The notes under the pieces: model-generated
Told to the model about the DNA's origin: nothing
The model's database searches: none
What the model saw: only the letters and a program-made list of their open reading frames with translations
Position numbers and translations under genes: made by a program
Shown here: positions 4,837 through 19,263 of the stretch, piece by piece
Layout of the letters: every line of letters begins with the position of its first letter
Position numbering within the stretch: the stretch's first letter is position 1
Assembly: GCA_013152295.1 (NCBI GenBank)
Contig: JAADGQ010000006.1
Coordinates: forward strand, 1 to 36,216
From: Gammaproteobacteria bacterium
GTDB taxonomy: Bacteria; Pseudomonadota; Gammaproteobacteria; JAADGQ01
DNA length: 36,216 nt
Reading direction: 5' to 3'

Positions 4837-6360
4837 CTACGTAGTTTTAGCCAGATAGAGCGAATAGGCTGGGTTGTCTGTTTCGTCTACATACGCGTAA
4901 CCCAGATCATCTAAAAATATTTTAAACTCGTCATTTTGAGAGGCGCCCATTTGCAGACCGACCAGCACCCGTCCGTGCGCCGAGCCGTGGTTACGGTAGT
5001 GAAACATACTAATGCTCCAGCGCTGCCCCATGCGCGACAAAAAACGCAGCAACGCGCCCGGTCTTTCAGGAAACTCAAACCGATATATCACTTCATGAGC
5101 AACGCCTGAGGCACGACCACCCACCATGTAGCGCACATGCAGCTTGGCCATCTCATTTTCGGTCAGATCCACAACGGGATACTCTTTCTGGCGCAGCTGT
5201 GCGATAAGTGTCTCGCGCTCTACAGTTCCCTCCTCAAGCTCGATACCGACAAAAATATGCGCAAGTTCTTCATCCCGGTAACGGTAGTTAAACTCGGTAA
5301 TGCTACGCCTGCCCAATGCCAGGCAAAATTGCATAAAACTACCCGCCCGCTCAGGAATGGTCACACCCAACAGCGCTTCGCGCTGCTCGCCCAGCTCGGC
5401 TCTCTCCGCAACGTGTCTCAGGCGCCCAAAATTAATATTAGCGCCGCTAACGATGGTGACTAGATCTTTCTCTGTGACCGAGTGATTTTCCACATACTTC
5501 TTCATCCCCGCCACAGCAAGTGCCCCGGCGGGCTCTGCGATTGACCGTGTATCGTCGAAGATGTCTTTAATCGCTGCGCAGATCTCGTCAGTATTAACCA
5601 GGATCATACTGTCTACATACTGCCTAGCAACGCGAAACGGCTCTTTGCCGACCTGGCGCACCGCCACGCCATCGGCAAAAATGCCCACCTGATCGATCAC
5701 CGTACGCTGACCATTGGCCAGCGCTCTCTCCATGCACGGCGCGTCTTCTGGCTCAACACCGATAATTTTTATCTCTGGATAGAGGTATTTGACGTACACG
5801 GCAATGCCCGACACAAGGCCGCCGCCGCCCACCGGCACAAATATCGCGTGGATCGATCCCGCATGCTGGCGCAGTATCTCCATCGCCACCGTACCCTGAC
5901 CCGCGATCACCTCTTCATCATCGTAGGGGTGGATAAACACCATCTCCCGCTCTTCGCCTATTTTATAAGCGTGTTCGCAAGCCTCATCATAGGTATCACC
6001 GTGCAGAATGATCGAAGCACCCATCGCACGCACCGAGCCCGTTTTTATTGCCGGGGTTGTTTTAGGCATGACGATGAGCGCTTTGATACCCAAGTAGCGG
6101 GCGGACAGTGCAACACCCTGCGCATGATTTCCTGCTGATGCGGTGATAACGCCATTCGTTCGCTGCGCTGGCGAAAGCCCGACAATCTTGTTGTAGGCAC
6201 CACGCAACTTGAAAGAGAAGACGGGCTGCAGATCTTCACGCTTGAGCCAGACCCTGTTATCCGTGCGCAGGGAGAGTTTCGCGGCGTATTCCAATGGCGT
6301 CTCTTTTGCGACATCGTAAACGCGAGCTTTGAGAATTTTTTCTATGTAGCGATTAAGCAT
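4837..6360 (-). CDS. ilvA: Threonine ammonia-lyase, biosynthetic (IlvA)
   Basis: The product is 507 residues, matching the biosynthetic enzyme with its regulatory part. Residues about 15-320 are the PLP fold-type II domain, with the PLP-binding lysine K51 in SFKLRGAYNK, an SAGNHAQG phosphate-loop motif and the glycine-rich PVGGGGL loop. Residues about 330-505 are two ACT-like regulatory domains, each with an ERPG turn (PERAGSFMQF, then PERPGALLRF). These bind isoleucine and valine in known homologues. The reaction, threonine to 2-oxobutanoate plus ammonia, is the first step of isoleucine synthesis. The gene stands alone, divergent from rpiA and 286 bases upstream of glnA on the same strand, a gap that holds the glnA control region. 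The ribosome-binding site is weak. Confidence 0.97.
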   Translation of the reverse strand: MLNRYIEKILKARVYDVAKETPLEYAAKLSLRTDNRVWLKREDLQPVFSFKLRGAYNKIVGLSPAQRTNGVITASAGNHAQGVALSARYLGIKALIVMPKTTPAIKTGSVRAMGASIILHGDTYDEACEHAYKIGEEREMVFIHPYDDEEVIAGQGTVAMEILRQHAGSIHAIFVPVGGGGLVSGIAVYVKYLYPEIKIIGVEPEDAPCMERALANGQRTVIDQVGIFADGVAVRQVGKEPFRVARQYVDSMILVNTDEICAAIKDIFDDTRSIAEPAGALAVAGMKKYVENHSVTEKDLVTIVSGANINFGRLRHVAERAELGEQREALLGVTIPERAGSFMQFCLALGRRSITEFNYRYRDEELAHIFVGIELEEGTVERETLIAQLRQKEYPVVDLTENEMAKLHVRYMVGGRASGVAHEVIYRFEFPERPGALLRFLSRMGQRWSISMFHYRNHGSAHGRVLVGLQMGASQNDEFKIFLDDLGYAYVDETDNPAYSLYLAKTT

Positions 6361-6538: not shown

Positions 6539-7195
6539 ATGACACAAGATGAAATGAAAAAGCTGGTTGCCGAAGCCGCGATCAGCTACGTTGAAGCAGG
6601 CACAATCGTCGGCGTTGGTACCGGCTCCACTGCCAACCATTTCATCGATGCACTGGCAAAGATCAAGCATAAAATCGACGGTACTGTCGCCAGCTCCGTC
6701 GCCTCTGCCGAGCGTCTCAAACAGCACGGCATTCCTGTGTTCGATCTGACAAGCGTTAATGAAATCGCCGTGTATGTCGACGGCGCAGATGAGTCTAATC
6801 GCTACCTGCATCTCGTCAAAGGCGGTGGCGGCGCACTGACCAGAGAGAAGATCGTTGCAGCATGCAGCGATAAATTTGTCTGCATCGCAGACGAATCCAA
6901 GCTGGTGGATACATTAGGCACATTCCCGCTGCCCGTTGAAGTGATCCCGATGGCAAGAAGCATGGTCGCCAGAGCGCTCGTTAAATTGGGCGGGCAACCC
7001 GTCTATCGAGAAGGGTTCGTCACCGATAACGGCAACATCATCCTTGACGTGCACAACTTGGTTATCGCCGAGCCCTGCAAACTTGAAGAGCAGATCAACA
7101 ACATCACAGGGGTGGTGACCAATGGCCTGTTTGCGCTGAGGCCCGCTGACGTGCTGTTGCTGGGGACTCAAGATGGCGTGCGCACCATAACCTAA
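6539..7195 (+). CDS. rpiA: Ribose-5-phosphate isomerase A
   Basis: The product is 218 residues from the ATG at 6539, one residue shorter than E. coli RpiA. An upstream in-frame ATG at 6446 would add 31 unrelated residues. A GGAG ribosome-binding site nine bases before the inner ATG decides the start. Key motifs are [11 protein letters not shown] (substrate phosphate loop), VDGADE (catalytic acids) and [12 protein letters not shown] (conserved lysine and glutamate). It interconverts ribose-5-phosphate and ribulose-5-phosphate in the pentose phosphate pathway. It is transcribed divergently from ilvA. Its 3' region contains a series of hairpins and a strong terminator. Confidence 0.97.
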
Positions 7196-7248
7196 AAATT
7201 ATTTACCACGAGCGAGAACTTTTTAGGCAGGAGTCACTCTTATTTACC

Positions 7249-7373
7249 AGAGCATGTTGATACTGCTCTCCCGCCACCCCTCCCTAGGCGGGTATTCTGA
7301 CAGCCCGGTCCCCTAACCGGGCTGATTACTGCCCCGGCTCCTCTCTCCTCTAATCAAGCCGGGGCCTTTTTTT
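7249..7373 (+). ncRNA. Candidate small RNA or structured rpiA 3' UTR with four tandem hairpins
   Basis: Four hairpins with perfect stems follow one another. Hairpin 1: AGAGCA/TGCTCT, 7249-7269. Hairpin 2: CCCGCC/GGCGGG, 7270-7292. Hairpin 3: AGCCCGGT/ACCGGGCT, 7302-7323. Hairpin 4: GCCCCGGCT/AGCCGGGGC, 7331-7365, followed by seven T. The loops of hairpins 2-4 are almost pure pyrimidine (ACCCCTCCCTA, CCCCTA, and a 17-base loop beginning CCTCTCTCCTC). Such loops are complementary to Shine-Dalgarno sequences, as in C-rich-loop regulatory RNAs of other bacteria. A plain rpiA terminator would need only the last hairpin. No clear promoter of its own is seen, so it may be processed from the rpiA transcript. 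The structure is seen; the function is inferred. Confidence 0.5.
7331..7373 (+). terminator. Rho-independent terminator downstream of rpiA
   Basis: A perfect 9-bp GC-rich stem (GCCCCGGCT/AGCCGGGGC) with a 17-base pyrimidine-rich loop is followed by TTTTTTT at 7367-7373. It ends the rpiA transcript and the candidate small RNA. Confidence 0.9.
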
Positions 7374-7628
7374 AGTTTGATCCACACACTTAACCCACTC
7401 ATTTTTCTTTAAAATAGATCAAAAATCATCTGTTGAGAGGGATATCATTTTCAGTGCAATCCCGGCAGAATATTGCCATGGAGATGTGGATTTTTTCCAA
7501 ATAGCTCCACAGTGCTTTAGGCCCGATTGGACCCCCTTTTGCGCAACTAAGAAATGAGACTCTGCTCACTCACTTTCTGCGTTAACAGAGCTAATGAGCG
7601 CAACACCACGACACAGTGAGCCAAGCAG
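7374..7628. other. Intergenic stretch between the rpiA terminator and the repeat protein
   Basis: This stretch of about 255 bases is AT-rich in its first half and has no convincing coding frame. It should contain the promoter of the large downstream gene, but I could not find a clear -35/-10 pair, and no good ribosome-binding site precedes the ATG at 7629. Confidence 0.4.
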
Positions 7629-10600
7629 ATGTTCGCAACCCCTTCGATTCATGCCGCCCCCCGCCAGCTCTATTCGAGCGCGCAGCGCAACCGCTCAACC
7701 CCATCACCAAAAACAATCGGGTTGCTGTTTGCTGCGTTACTGCTCTGTCAATTGCTGCAACTTTCGCCCGCGCTTGCGGTGCCCTTGAACTTAGGCGAGC
7801 GTTTTCTGGTCGATGGCGGCGGTTCGTTTGGTAGCAGCATGTCTATCGACGGCGATACCGCCATTGTCGGTGCACCTCAAGCGGATCGCGGTACTGGTTT
7901 TACTGACTCCGGCGCCGCCTATATTTACCAACGCAGCAACAGTAGTGCCAATCTTTGGTCAAAAAAGCAAAAGCTGATCACAACAGATGGACAATCGCTG
8001 GATTTTTTCGGCACAAGCGTTGCGATAGATGGCGACACCGCCGTGGTCGGCGCATGGGGTGATGATGACAACGGCAATGAATCAGGTTCTGCATATATAT
8101 TTGTGCGCAATGCCACCGGTTTCTGGACACAAGCCACCAAACTGACCGCAAGCGACGGCGCACAAAAAGATTTTTTTGGCAAAAGTGTCGCCATTAGTGG
8201 TGATACCGTACTGATCGGCGCCGATGGCGACGACGAGCAGGGCAATGTCGGCTCTGCGTACATATTCGTGCGCAATACAGATGACAGTTGGAGTCAGCAA
8301 GCCAAACTGATGGCCAGCGATGGCGCCGTGGATGACTTTTTTGGTGCCAGCGTTGCCATTAATGGTGACCAGGCATTTATCGGTGCTTATGGATCCGACA
8401 AAAATGGCGCCGAGAGTGGCGCTGTCTATCTATTCAAGCGCAACGCCACAAGCGGTGTCTGGGCTGAGCAATTCACCTTTCCATCACCCAACAGCGCTGC
8501 CGACGAACGCTTTGGGTTTAGCCTGTCGTTCGATGGCAATACCCTGTTGATCGGTGCCGATGGTAATAGCAGTAACGGCCAGAGCTCAGGAATCGCCTAT
8601 CTACTCACGCTATCAACCACCAATAATGTCTGGTCGTATGAGGCTGCTTTAGTGCCCCTCGACGGCAGGGCCAACGACCGTTTTGGCCACTCACTGTCGT
8701 TAAGTGGAAACAGGGCGCTCATCGGCACCGATCTTGGCAATTCAAGAATCCCTAAAAGCGGGGCTGCATACCTGTTTATCCGTAGCGCCTCGGGCGCTTG
8801 GGACAAACAGGGCAAATTATCCCCATTGGTAGAAAATGAAGAGCTCTCTTTTGGTCTTGCTGTCGCCATCGACGGACTCACCGCATTCGTTGGAGCACCC
8901 AGAAGTAACGACAACGGTCAGCCCAATTCGGGCTCACTGAACATCTTTCCCCTTATTGAAGATGATGGCGACGATGACGGTACGCTGGACTTTTCCGACA
9001 ACTGCCCGGCTATCGCCAACCCGGACCAAACGGATCTGGACGATGACGGCAAAGGCAACCCGTGTGATGACGACGATGACGGTGATGGCGTCATCGATAC
9101 ACGCGACCTGTTTCCGTTAGACAAAAATGAGGCTACAGATAACGATAACGATGGCATTGGTGACGAGGCCGACCCCGACGACGACAATGACACAATACCC
9201 GACAGCGTAGAGAGAAACCTCACCGGCCTTGACCCTTTGATAGATGATGCCAACGAAGACTTCGACAATGATGGCTACGACAATGTCACCGAATATCACG
9301 CAGGCACATCACCTGTTTTCGATGGCGCACACCCTGGTCTGGTTCGTGCGCCCCAATACAAAGTCTCCACAGCTAGCAGCAGCAACGAAGCCAACCTTGG
9401 GGCAAGTGTAGCGCTGTCCGGCGACACCGCACTCATCGGCAAACCGGGCGATGACAGTGGTCGTGGAGCCGCGCACATTTTTACACGTGATACAGAGAAT
9501 CGCTGGATCGAACAGACCAAACTCGTAGCTGTGGATGGCGACCAATCGGATAACTTCGGAGCAAGTGTTGCCATCAGTGGCAATCTTGCGCTGGTTGGCG
9601 CACCGGGCGACGATGACAGAGGTTCTGCTTCGGGGGCAGCCTATCTGTTTGAACGCAACACTCAAGGAGAGTGGGATCCTGTCGCAAAATTTTTTGCAGC
9701 AGATGGCGCAGCGGGGGATCGTTTCGGCACCAGCGTTGCCCTCTTCGGCAGCAGTGCACTCATTGGTGCCGATGGTGATGACAATAACGGAACTGATTCA
9801 GGCTCTGCCTACCTGATCCAGCGTCGTTCAGACGGAATATGGATTAACACAGCATGGTTTGCCGCCCCGGATGCCAATGCGGGAGCACGCTTTGGCAGTA
9901 GCGTCTCTCTGACGGGGGACACTATTTTAATTGGTGCTCCGGGTGCCAACAACATCGAACCTGGTACAGGCTCGGCTTATGTCTTTACCCGCCCCGCTCT
10001 GCTCTGGCTTCCACAAGCCAGGCTGTTTGCCCTGAACGGGATGACAGACGACAATTTTGGTGCCAGCGTCTTCCTGCGCGGAGAGACCGCAATAGTCGGT
10101 GCACCAGGCGACGATGACCAAGGCGAGGATTCTGGATCAGCATATGCCTTTAGCCGCGCCACCAACGGTATCTGGACGCTACAGCGCAAATGGTTAGCCG
10201 TTAACGGCGTCGCTGGAGAACGTTTTGGCAAAGCGGTCTCTATCCGTGGAGACCTAGCTTTAGTCGGCGCCGACGGCTACCCAAGAAGCCGCATCAGCTC
10301 ATCCAGCTCTGCTGATGGGGGTGCTGCCTATCTGTTCCAGCGTGACAGCACTGCACAGTGGAGCAAGCAGGGTCGCCTGCTCGCATGGGAGGGCGCTGAT
10401 GGCGACTTTTTCGGCGCAAGCGTCTCGGTATCAGCGACAACCGCGTTGATTGGCGCGCCAGGACAGGACGACTCTAAACGCAACGGTGGTGTCGCCTACT
10501 TCTTCGATTTTTCGCTGCAAGATGAAGACGACGATGGCGCCTTCGATTTCTCCGATAACTGTGTGGGCAAGAGCAACAATGATCAAGCCGATTTTGATGG

Positions 10601-13451
10601 CGACGGCATTGGCAACGCTTGCGACGACGATGACGATAACGATGGCGTGGCAGACGACGTTGATCTGCTTCCGCTCGACCCCACCGAATCAAATGACAGT
10701 GACAGAGACGGCGTTGGCGATAATGCAGACGGCGATGATGACAACGATGGCCTGCCCGACTCGATTGAAAACCGCTACGGCTGGAACCCGCTGGTAGCCG
10801 GCGAAGAGAGTGATGATAGTGATCTCGACGGCTACGATAATCTCACAGAGTTTCGCGCCGGAACCTCTCCCATTGATGCCGATGACACCCCTGCTCTGGT
10901 TCAGGCGCTGCACGACAAACTGCTCGCCACCGATGGGGCCAAAGGGGAAAATTTCGGCTACAGCGTCTCTATTTTTGGTAACCGCGCGCTGATTGGCGCG
11001 CGCAACGGGAAGGTCGATGGCAGCATAACAGGGGCAGCCTACATCTACAGACGCAATAGTAGCGGCAGATGGTTGCAGGAGGCCAAACTCACAGCCTCCG
11101 ACGGAAAAAAAGATGATGCATTTGGTATCAGCGTCTCCCTCTCGGGCGACACAGCACTGATCGGTGCACACCTCGCAGACAAGAGCCCAGACGATACCGA
11201 CACTGGCGCGGCTTACCTCTTTGTACGCAACAGCGATGGCAGCTGGACTCAACAAACCAAGCTCACTGCCGCCGATGGTTTGAGCAGAAACTTCTTTGGT
11301 TTTTCCGTTTCACTCTTTGAAGATCGCGCGCTAGTCGGTGCATACGGAGACGACAGCCGTGGCACCGAATCGGGAGCCGCTTATGTCTTTGCGCGCAGCG
11401 GCACGAGTTGGTCGCAGCAGGCCAAGTTAAGCCCGGAACTGGGCGTTGCTGGTGATCAATTCGGATATGCACTGTCGTTACATGGCACGCGCGCGTTGAT
11501 TGGCGCGTTCGGCGATGATCCTGTCAATAGAAGGGCCGTTGATGTCGGCTCCGCTTATATCTACGAACGGGTCGGGCCGGGTGATTGGCAACTGCAAACC
11601 AAATTGCTGGCCGACGACGGTGCCTCTAAAGACGCTTTTGGCATTAGCGTTTCACTCTCCACGGACAGCGCACTGATAGGCGCCACTCTGCGCGATATCG
11701 GGAATCCCCAATTAAAAGATGTTGGCGCTGCGTACCTTTTCACTCGCAATAGTGCGGGAAACTGGGTGCAACAACGCTTGTTCACCCCTCTCAACCCCAG
11801 TGAAAACGACCAGTTTGGCCACTCCGTCTCGTTGCACAGCGGCATCGCGCTGGTTGGCACAAACAGGACGATAGTTCCAAATGGCGTAATAACCACGGGT
11901 GCTGCGCATGTGTACGTTCGTGGTAGCGCGAGTAATTGGAGAAAATCTGGTCAACTACTCGCACGTGATGGCGAAGACGGCGATCTCTTTGGTACTGCTG
12001 TGGCAACCTTTAATGGTCGCTTCTTAGTTGGCGCGAAAAAAGAGGATGATAATAATGAGGATGCGGGGGCAGCCTACCTTTACGATCTGGCACTGACCGA
12101 CAGTGACGCAGACGGCGTGATGGATTTTTCCGACAACTGCACTGACACATCCAATAGCGATCAGGAGGACTTTGATCAGGATGGTGCGGGTGATGCGTGC
12201 GACCCGGACGATGACAACGATGGACTTCTCGATACCTGGGAAGAGCTCTATTTTAACTCGACGACCGGCGCAGACCCCGCTGTGGACAGCGATGGTGACG
12301 GTCTGGACAATCTCACCGAATCGACGATTAAAACCAATCCACGCAAAAGAGACACCGATGGCGATGGCGACAGCGATGGCGATGAGTACCGTTTCGAAAC
12401 CGATCCTCTCTCCAGCACCGACACGCTGGACGATCATCGCCCCTTTACCCCTGCTGTGTTGGCAATCAGCTCGCCTGTGCCTCTGACTTCGCTCGACTTC
12501 TCCTCCGTGGCGTTTGACGACCCCGACCCGGGCGACAGCTTCGACGCCAGCGAGTGGCAGATCAGCAGCGACGAGAGCTTCAGCGCTAACCGTATCGTCT
12601 TTACATCCGTGTTAGAGCGTGATGTCATCGAAGGTGGTGCTGAAGCGTTATTAAAGCTGGCAATACCGGCAGGCGTACTGCTCAAAGACAAAAACTACTG
12701 GACCCGTGTTCGCCACCGCGATGTTATTGGACTCTGGTCAGTGTGGTCCGCAGGTGCTGCCTATACCACGTTGAGCACCGATCCCGATGACATCGATGGA
12801 AATAACGTTCACGACGATTTTCAGCTCAACGAGTTTTCTGATGTTGATGGCAACGACATCGATGATCGGGATGAAAGGATTATGGTTCTGCGCGCCGCAC
12901 AAGCTGGGCTCGACAACAGCTCAGGCGCCATTGTCGGTGTTTCGGCAGACAATGGTGTGCTCAGCCGTCTGATGCCTATTGCTCACACGGAGTTTCCCGC
13001 GACGATCCAAAAGGATTTTAGCGCTGAATACGGCTGGTTTAATTTCCGTGTCGATGGGTTGTTGATCGACAAAAGTAATCCTGCCACCGTAGTTGTCACG
13101 TTCTATTTTCCAGAAAAACTGGATCTCCAGCTCAGATGGGTCAAGTACGATACGGCAACCCAGCAGATCAGCATTCTCTCTTCCGCTGAGTACGGCGAAA
13201 AAACCATTAAGGTGACACTGACCGATGGCGGTGATGGTGATAGCGATGGCGTCATCAATGGTGTCATTGTTGATCCGGGTGGCCCGTTAAGACCCACCGT
13301 CACTCCCTCCCCACCTGCTGGTGACTCATCAAGCGGGGGCGGCGGCGGCGGAGGGCGGCTATCACCGCTCGTGCTCTCTATGTTGCTGCTGCATGGGTTG
13401 TTTTTTGTGATGTGGCGTGGTTACCACCGCTCGCTGCGTATCAATGCCTGA
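7629..13451 (+). CDS. Giant FG-GAP repeat surface/secreted protein: three seven-bladed propellers, calcium-binding-type linkers, anchor-U domain
   Basis: The product is 1940 residues. A hydrophobic signal segment at about 28-50 ends in SPALA before VPLNL, so it is exported. It carries 21 repeats of about 55-60 residues of the FG-GAP_2/integrin-alpha type (pattern D-x-FG-x-SV-x-x-G-D-x-A-L-I-G-A-x-x-D-D-x-x-G-x-x-SG-x-AY-x-F-x-R, then W and KL). They form three blocks of exactly seven, at about residues 54-443, 568-964 and 1091-1485. Each block probably folds as one beta-propeller. Each is followed by an Asp-rich thrombospondin type 3-like segment with the pattern DNC...DQ-DFD-DG-GN-CD-DDD. 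A fibronectin-like stretch (about 1600-1715) and a choice-of-anchor U-like domain (about 1720-1885) follow. The tail is seven glycines at 1903-1909, a hydrophobic segment and basic residues, like a GlyGly-CTERM sorting signal. The ligand is unknown; adhesion is a guess. The gene stands alone. Confidence 0.88.
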   Translation: MFATPSIHAAPRQLYSSAQRNRSTPSPKTIGLLFAALLLCQLLQLSPALAVPLNLGERFLVDGGGSFGSSMSIDGDTAIVGAPQADRGTGFTDSGAAYIYQRSNSSANLWSKKQKLITTDGQSLDFFGTSVAIDGDTAVVGAWGDDDNGNESGSAYIFVRNATGFWTQATKLTASDGAQKDFFGKSVAISGDTVLIGADGDDEQGNVGSAYIFVRNTDDSWSQQAKLMASDGAVDDFFGASVAINGDQAFIGAYGSDKNGAESGAVYLFKRNATSGVWAEQFTFPSPNSAADERFGFSLSFDGNTLLIGADGNSSNGQSSGIAYLLTLSTTNNVWSYEAALVPLDGRANDRFGHSLSLSGNRALIGTDLGNSRIPKSGAAYLFIRSASGAWDKQGKLSPLVENEELSFGLAVAIDGLTAFVGAPRSNDNGQPNSGSLNIFPLIEDDGDDDGTLDFSDNCPAIANPDQTDLDDDGKGNPCDDDDDGDGVIDTRDLFPLDKNEATDNDNDGIGDEADPDDDNDTIPDSVERNLTGLDPLIDDANEDFDNDGYDNVTEYHAGTSPVFDGAHPGLVRAPQYKVSTASSSNEANLGASVALSGDTALIGKPGDDSGRGAAHIFTRDTENRWIEQTKLVAVDGDQSDNFGASVAISGNLALVGAPGDDDRGSASGAAYLFERNTQGEWDPVAKFFAADGAAGDRFGTSVALFGSSALIGADGDDNNGTDSGSAYLIQRRSDGIWINTAWFAAPDANAGARFGSSVSLTGDTILIGAPGANNIEPGTGSAYVFTRPALLWLPQARLFALNGMTDDNFGASVFLRGETAIVGAPGDDDQGEDSGSAYAFSRATNGIWTLQRKWLAVNGVAGERFGKAVSIRGDLALVGADGYPRSRISSSSSADGGAAYLFQRDSTAQWSKQGRLLAWEGADGDFFGASVSVSATTALIGAPGQDDSKRNGGVAYFFDFSLQDEDDDGAFDFSDNCVGKSNNDQADFDGDGIGNACDDDDDNDGVADDVDLLPLDPTESNDSDRDGVGDNADGDDDNDGLPDSIENRYGWNPLVAGEESDDSDLDGYDNLTEFRAGTSPIDADDTPALVQALHDKLLATDGAKGENFGYSVSIFGNRALIGARNGKVDGSITGAAYIYRRNSSGRWLQEAKLTASDGKKDDAFGISVSLSGDTALIGAHLADKSPDDTDTGAAYLFVRNSDGSWTQQTKLTAADGLSRNFFGFSVSLFEDRALVGAYGDDSRGTESGAAYVFARSGTSWSQQAKLSPELGVAGDQFGYALSLHGTRALIGAFGDDPVNRRAVDVGSAYIYERVGPGDWQLQTKLLADDGASKDAFGISVSLSTDSALIGATLRDIGNPQLKDVGAAYLFTRNSAGNWVQQRLFTPLNPSENDQFGHSVSLHSGIALVGTNRTIVPNGVITTGAAHVYVRGSASNWRKSGQLLARDGEDGDLFGTAVATFNGRFLVGAKKEDDNNEDAGAAYLYDLALTDSDADGVMDFSDNCTDTSNSDQEDFDQDGAGDACDPDDDNDGLLDTWEELYFNSTTGADPAVDSDGDGLDNLTESTIKTNPRKRDTDGDGDSDGDEYRFETDPLSSTDTLDDHRPFTPAVLAISSPVPLTSLDFSSVAFDDPDPGDSFDASEWQISSDESFSANRIVFTSVLERDVIEGGAEALLKLAIPAGVLLKDKNYWTRVRHRDVIGLWSVWSAGAAYTTLSTDPDDIDGNNVHDDFQLNEFSDVDGNDIDDRDERIMVLRAAQAGLDNSSGAIVGVSADNGVLSRLMPIAHTEFPATIQKDFSAEYGWFNFRVDGLLIDKSNPATVVVTFYFPEKLDLQLRWVKYDTATQQISILSSAEYGEKTIKVTLTDGGDGDSDGVINGVIVDPGGPLRPTVTPSPPAGDSSSGGGGGGGRLSPLVLSMLLLHGLFFVMWRGYHRSLRINA

Positions 13452-16839: not shown

Positions 16840-19263
<2,424 letters not shown>

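Follow-up and report, generated by a model that had tools for sequence, protein, structure and literature searches.

Four hairpins stand in tandem behind rpiA at positions 7249-7373 (plus strand) of contig JAADGQ010000006.1 from a gammaproteobacterium (assembly GCA_013152295.1; the analysed stretch of 36,216 nucleotides (nt) is called the window). Do they form an elaborate end of the rpiA messenger or a gene of their own, and what would such a gene do? The initial annotation had pictured an undescribed regulatory RNA, either free-standing or derived from the rpiA 3' untranslated region (3'-UTR), with C/U-only loops under selection. Our analysis makes it probable that a gene in its own right occupies 7249-7373 and encodes a trans-acting small RNA (sRNA) of about 125 nt, predicted to be induced by sigma-E and to repress messengers through loops directed at their ribosome-binding sites.

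Hairpins, loops and promoter

All four hairpins are present on the plus strand, the last one being the terminator (see table). Folding of 7249-7376 gives a minimum free energy of -55.2 kcal/mol, compared with -35.5 +/- 3.2 kcal/mol for 200 dinucleotide shuffles, none of which was equally stable (z -6.26). Loops 2 to 4 of the stem-loops (SL1 to SL4) are indeed C/U-rich, but they are not strictly C/U-only: A flanks loop 2, loop 3 has a final A and loop 4 ends in AAUCA.

Covariance model R2 was built from six sequences including the window, and R3 from 12 sequences without it; a further model, R1, was dropped before any search because its MAFFT alignment left the stems unaligned (8 pairs). The R3 match in the window covers exactly 7249-7373 (70.2 bits, E 7.9e-16), the next best match scoring 4.9 bits. 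The structure was tested on 47 R2 matches, 45 of them distinct and only the window coming from the training set, in an alignment fitted to the model. Pairing is possible in 92.4% of the cells, and two-sided changes, in 302 cells altogether, occur at every one of the 30 pairs. Covariation reached 0.635, versus 0.212 +/- 0.012 in shuffled and at most 0.138 in slid alignments. The loops behave differently from the stems: the CCUCCCU columns of the SL2 loop carry 1.3-2.0 bits each, and CTCC or CCCC occurs there in 44 of the 45 sequences. The SL3 loop has the consensus UCCCCAA (CTCC or CCCC in 40/45), and C and U make up 82% of the SL4 loop on average (CTCC or CCCC in 37/45). The initial annotation would have given up its case if relatives kept only the last hairpin or let their loops drift. 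They do neither, since the loops are nearly invariant on covarying stems and loop 2 stays CCUCCCU; both the supposed selection on C/U loops and the regulatory-RNA architecture are supported.

Could such a picture arise from fortuitous hairpins in front of a terminator, with no regulatory role? Local composition could yield C-rich loops, and the motif CCTCCCT by itself is no rarity (one occurrence in the window, 2.25 expected). Judging from the alignment, it is conservation among relatives, not motif rarity, that puts the C/U loops above chance. Covariation of all 30 pairs around nearly invariant loops in 45 distinct sequences contradicts the idea, and linkage of the RNA to one promoter type and one locus (see below) also argues against it; we regard it as exceedingly improbable.

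A sequence matching the sigma-E (RpoE/AlgU) promoter consensus lies upstream of SL1. The usual sigma-E spacing from the -10 element would place the transcription start at about 7248-7249. The pattern GAACTT-N16-TCNNA has a single match in the 36-kb window, with 0.24 expected by shuffling, and the GAACTT-N16/17-TC promoter characteristic of the relatives is thus found here as well. Among the first 30 loci (window included) the promoter score was 9/9 in 13, 8/9 in seven and 5-7 in the remaining ten, two of which (L003 and L013) are true members. A fresh set comprised 24 new class loci from the R2 search, R2 itself containing no promoter. A promoter of at least 8/9 was found within 45 nt upstream in 18 of these 24, while the background in the same loci was 90 of 13,828 windows of 50 nt (0.65%). 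The genome also encodes RpoE (316.4 bits, above the curated cut-off), and rpoE is followed by a gene for an RseA_N-domain protein. The predicted borders of the RNA gene are set by this sigma-E-type promoter and the intrinsic terminator, in keeping with the free-standing gene that had been envisaged. An 8-base perfect inverted repeat (CCTAAAAA/TTTTTAGG, 7191-7198 and 7220-7227) spans the rpiA end and overlaps the -35 element; it could be an operator or chance.

The same stretch might instead act from the minus strand, as a sponge for CsrA/RsmA with GGA in its hairpin loops. That strand also folds (z -5.34), with GGGAGGGG and GAGGAGAGAGGAG in the reverse-complemented loops. Both the T-run terminator and the sigma-E-type promoter belong to the plus strand, where relatives conserve them, and this reading was rejected as very improbable.

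Features of the sRNA gene and its surroundings (positions in the window)
Feature	Position	Strand	Basis or remark
Predicted sRNA, ~125 nt, four hairpins	7249..7373	+	R3 and RF02837 matches, fold
SL1, 5' hairpin	7249..7269	+	fold; loop not C/U-rich; 6/6 pairs with two-sided changes in relatives
SL2, 6 bp, loop ACCCCUCCCUA	7270..7292	+	fold
CCUCCCU in SL2 loop	7279-7285	+	matches the anti-Shine-Dalgarno core; no other stretch of the RNA group is as well conserved
SL3, 9 bp, loop CCCCUA	7301..7324	+	fold
SL4, 9 bp, loop CCUCUCUCCUCUAAUCA	7331-7365	+	fold; 17-base C/U-rich loop
Intrinsic terminator, SL4 then C + T7	7331..7373 (T7 at 7367-7373)	+	fold, T-run
-35 element GAACTT, sigma-E (RpoE/AlgU)-type	7216..7221	+	exact match, 16-base spacer
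-10 element TCTTA, same promoter	7238..7242	+	6 bases separate it from SL1
rpiA (ribose 5-phosphate isomerase A)	6539..7195	+	PF06026, E 2.4e-60; upstream neighbour, not part of the RNA gene
ilvA, diverging from rpiA	4837-6360	-	
Open reading frame, 1940 aa, directly past the sRNA terminator	7629-13451	+	21 FG-GAP_2 stretches (2.3e-283), weak thrombospondin type 3 match
gyrB with insert domain	16840-19263	-

Relatives of the RNA and their locus

No Rfam family matched anywhere in the window at its gathering score, and in a nucleotide search of 56 relatives with 7190-7440 the genome itself was the sole match; sequence alone would thus make the RNA an orphan. The Rfam model RF02837 matched in 27 of the 56 relatives (own genome included), in none of them above its gathering score, and about 20 of 30 oriented loci show a similar hairpin plan by eye. 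Seven loci with low RF02837 scores (L023, L024, L026-L029 and L031) were not accepted as members, as they lack the promoter and the architecture; some of them are weakly matched by R2.

R2 gave 28 matches at E <= 0.01 in 32 sources, of which six were its own training rows, and it recovered held-out members. At E <= 0.001 it had matches in 180 of the 369 class genomes, and by our own count 153 of these reach E <= 1e-7. Among 200 genomes of the phylum 19 matched, five of them outside the class and all five at or below 32.6 bits, so that the weak class matches may include false ones. Eight of 15 genomes from named records were matched, among them Thioalkalivibrio sulfidiphilus, Thiohalomonas denitrificans, Kangiella taiwanensis, a Burkholderiales metagenome-assembled genome (MAG) and three other MAGs; the match in Marinobacter lutaoensis (L138, 29.5 bits) is weak and not confirmed. 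T. sulfidiphilus (L132) has two tandem copies, 1257-1383 and 1501-1612 on the minus strand between polA and engB, each with a GAACTT promoter; K. taiwanensis carries a single copy. Two to four close matches occur in other genomes, for example four in G187 (contig 33, 13148-13903) and four in G294 (contig 8). Two genomes of the same family (L113:1403-1498 and L021:1500-1593) have a shorter form of three hairpins: SL3 is missing, the C/U loop of SL2 is retained, and the terminator has a CUCCC loop. As judged by these models, the window RNA is a member of a widespread gamma- and betaproteobacterial RNA group.

The usual place of this group was surveyed by tblastn with the PolA C-terminus, EngB and RpiA. 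PolA and/or EngB were found within about 1.5 kb in 21 of the 24 fresh loci and in eight of nine loci from named genomes. RpiA was met at the window's own locus alone among 41 loci, and at none of 25 further loci. At one locus (L012) the RNA has polA on one side and a gyrB-like protein, judged by eye, on the other.

The neighbourhood of rpiA was also searched from the other side. No copy adjoins rpiA in 82 other rpiA neighbourhoods, two same-family genomes included, three of the 82 extending less than 200 bases beyond rpiA; a weak match (20.8 bits, L035) lies 1.4 kb from rpiA. Both genomes of the window's GTDB family carry the RNA beside engB, with the promoter GAACTT-N16-TCTTT, and their rpiA loci are devoid of it. 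The window's genome has a single match to the RNA; the 3' side of its engB (G000:C110) holds no copy, and polA is not within the fetched locus. The simplest reading of these positions would be a relocation of the RNA gene with its promoter from engB to rpiA; an equally possible course is duplication, with the original copy lost afterwards. The assembly (2.46 Mb) is estimated to be 91.7% complete, with 8% of the genome missing. Among named genomes, the best-matching rpiA relatives come from gammaproteobacterial MAGs, and several of these bear the label Ectothiorhodospiraceae, Chromatiaceae or Chromatiales.

These loci bear directly on the view that the hairpins belong to the rpiA 3'-UTR, as an elaborate terminator, as protection of the rpiA mRNA or as the source of a processed sRNA. 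In its favour, the RNA shares the strand of rpiA and starts 53 bases past the stop codon, and inspection of the interval showed no further terminator-like site. A sigma-E-type promoter of its own speaks against this view, as do relatives that sit by polA/engB and not by rpiA. With the relatives unlinked to rpiA, the 3'-UTR origin once considered for the RNA is not supported, and we judge any such reading quite unlikely. A moved copy suggests that the RNA gene can function by itself, whatever genes lie next to it.

Proposed function and candidate targets

For the free-standing sRNA gene the following course of events may be proposed. Envelope stress would free RpoE from RseA, and RpoE would transcribe the RNA. 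Its exposed loops CCUCCCU, CCCCUA and CCUCUCUCCUCU would then pair with G-rich ribosome-binding sites, and the pairing would repress translation of selected mRNAs, as has been reported for sX13 and ErsA. Several loops on stable stems could let one RNA reach several targets.

Sites that could pair with the SL2 loop were sought in the own genome, where AGGGAGG-N4-9-ATG has 12 matches, versus two for the reversed pattern. Frames of more than 70 codons begin at seven of these sites, and three of the seven encode fatty-acid activation or oxidation domains. By Pfam, five of the products are Cse1, a LysR-type regulator, an acyl-CoA dehydrogenase and two AMP-binding ligases, of which one also has an acyltransferase domain; the other two frames are a putative integrase-like protein and a partly masked one. 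The AGGGAGG ahead of the Cse1 (type I-E CRISPR) start at L178 (G000:C159:3009-3026) is complementary to the SL2 loop.

Several observations weigh against a sigma-E-driven, trans-acting sRNA at this locus. AGGGAGG is itself Shine-Dalgarno-like, which weakens the count of 12 versus two, and five of the 12 sites open frames of fewer than 40 codons. Among 30 fadE-like starts AGGGAGG was found in one, that of the own genome, with start codons picked by a simple rule so that some may be wrong. The promoter is below threshold in six of the 24 fresh loci (L157, L161, L162, L164, L166 and L168) as well as in L003 and L013. With no terminator intervening, a read-through transcript from rpiA may also end at 7373. 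Finally, the window RNA stays below the gathering score of every Rfam family. The acyl-CoA dehydrogenase and acyl-CoA ligase theme, the best-looking target set, failed for fadE, the one gene followed up, and no conserved target is claimed for the window RNA.

A sigma-E-induced RNA might also bind a protein or sequester another RNA, and leave ribosome-binding sites alone. The fadE candidate site is not conserved, and loop conservation exceeds what any one target explains; both are in line with such a role. What speaks against it are sX13 and ncS27, RNAs of the same loop character, for which passages of PMC3771888 and PMC5688073 report action through C/U-rich loops at translation start regions. 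We consider a role of this kind unlikely and continue to favour repression at ribosome-binding sites.

Comparison with described RNAs

MicA, RybB and MicL are sigma-E-driven sRNAs of the enterobacterial envelope stress response; we take them to differ from the window RNA in sequence, seed placement and locus. Matches to sX11, NsiR1, 6C and PrrF were rejected, being below the gathering score and resting on the terminator.

The best Rfam match of the window is RF02837, anti-hemB (44.6 bits, E 2.7e-9, model positions 1-81 of 81, standard pairs), 4.9 bits short of the gathering score of 49.5 bits. The Rfam family is also called "Burkholderia RNA 7", and in B. cenocepacia the RNA is ncS04 (PMC5688073). 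The window RNA shows its consensus structure of a C-rich-loop hairpin, a second hairpin and a terminator hairpin, and the two have the SL2-SL3-terminator layout with the CCUCCCU loop in common. What sets the window RNA apart is an additional hairpin at the 5' end that the Rfam model does not include, a terminator loop of greater length, and a position beside rpiA and the FG-GAP protein instead of next to and antisense to hemB. A Burkholderiales locus (L135) connects the two: it scores 72.5 bits with RF02837 (above gathering) and 66.6 bits with R3, and it lies between hemB and engB with GAACTT-N16-TCATA upstream. Given these scores, the locus and the promoter, "anti-hemB" appears to be the betaproteobacterial branch of the RNA group, named after its neighbour. 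Five of 39 scanned group loci pass the RF02837 gathering score; the class-wide group is covered by Rfam in part only.

ErsA of Pseudomonas has been described as a sigma-22-dependent RNA that is encoded at the polA-engB locus and acts on algC; its activation of anr requires Hfq. Like the window RNA it has C-rich hairpin loops, but published accounts give it three stem-loops and a U-rich single-stranded domain in place of four hairpins. As to its sigma-22/sigma-E dependence, the window offers the promoter sequence and the genome rpoE-rseA; the polA-engB locus is not shared by the window RNA. The window scores 20.1 bits with RF01719 (ErsA, Pseudomon-1; gathering 50). In Pseudomonas sagittaria polA and engB flank the RF01719 match (66.7 bits), and GAACTT-N16-TCGGA starts 58 nt before it. 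Our models recognise this ErsA weakly (R2: 21.3 bits, E 1.5e-5, in a 3.1-kb locus with filters off; R3: 23.8 bits, E 8.5e-5), and the R2 whole-genome search of P. sagittaria gave no match at ErsA.

According to passages of PMC3771888, sX13 of Xanthomonas is always downstream of polA, works without Hfq and has stable stem-loops whose CCCC/CCCCC loops act on G-rich motifs. Tandem stem-loops with C-rich loops are likewise found in the window RNA, which has four stem-loops in all where sX13 has three and scores 19.4 bits with RF02232 (gathering 50). The double-hairpin "toxic" RNAs ncS27/bdhR1 and Bordetella S17 (RF02278) are described in parts of PMC5688073 and PMC11722255 as having C/U-rich unpaired stretches aimed at ribosome-binding sites. 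They differ in having two hairpins, and the window scores 14.9 bits with RF02278 (gathering 50). As for the claim that the RNA was undescribed, it stands insofar as no Rfam family reaches its gathering score, and it does not stand insofar as the already described ErsA and anti-hemB seem to belong to the group.

Common descent of ErsA and sX13 with the RNA group seems likely from the locus, the loops and, for ErsA only, the promoter, the resemblance in sequence being weak. The literature searched, which covered few subscription journals, held no paper joining ErsA with sX13 and, judged from listings, no description of a class-wide polA-engB sigma-E sRNA; polA, engB and sRNA occur together in three papers, PMC8575079 among them. 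The class-wide unification of these RNAs appears to be new. We lean modestly towards the view that, across gamma- and betaproteobacteria, the polA-engB locus is normally occupied by one ancient sigma-E-driven sRNA gene with C-rich loops. ErsA, anti-hemB and probably sX13 would be its lineage names, and the window gene would have jumped to rpiA with promoter, architecture and loops kept. If true, about half of the class would possess a default envelope-stress RNA, a multi-loop anti-Shine-Dalgarno decoy. One question can now be put to many uncultured lineages: do sigma-E-driven RNAs with C-rich loops halt translation under envelope stress? What our data add is relatives of the RNA, by sequence, in about half of the sampled class genomes, a shared sigma-E-type promoter, and a link between the separately named ErsA and anti-hemB, with sX13 probably the third.
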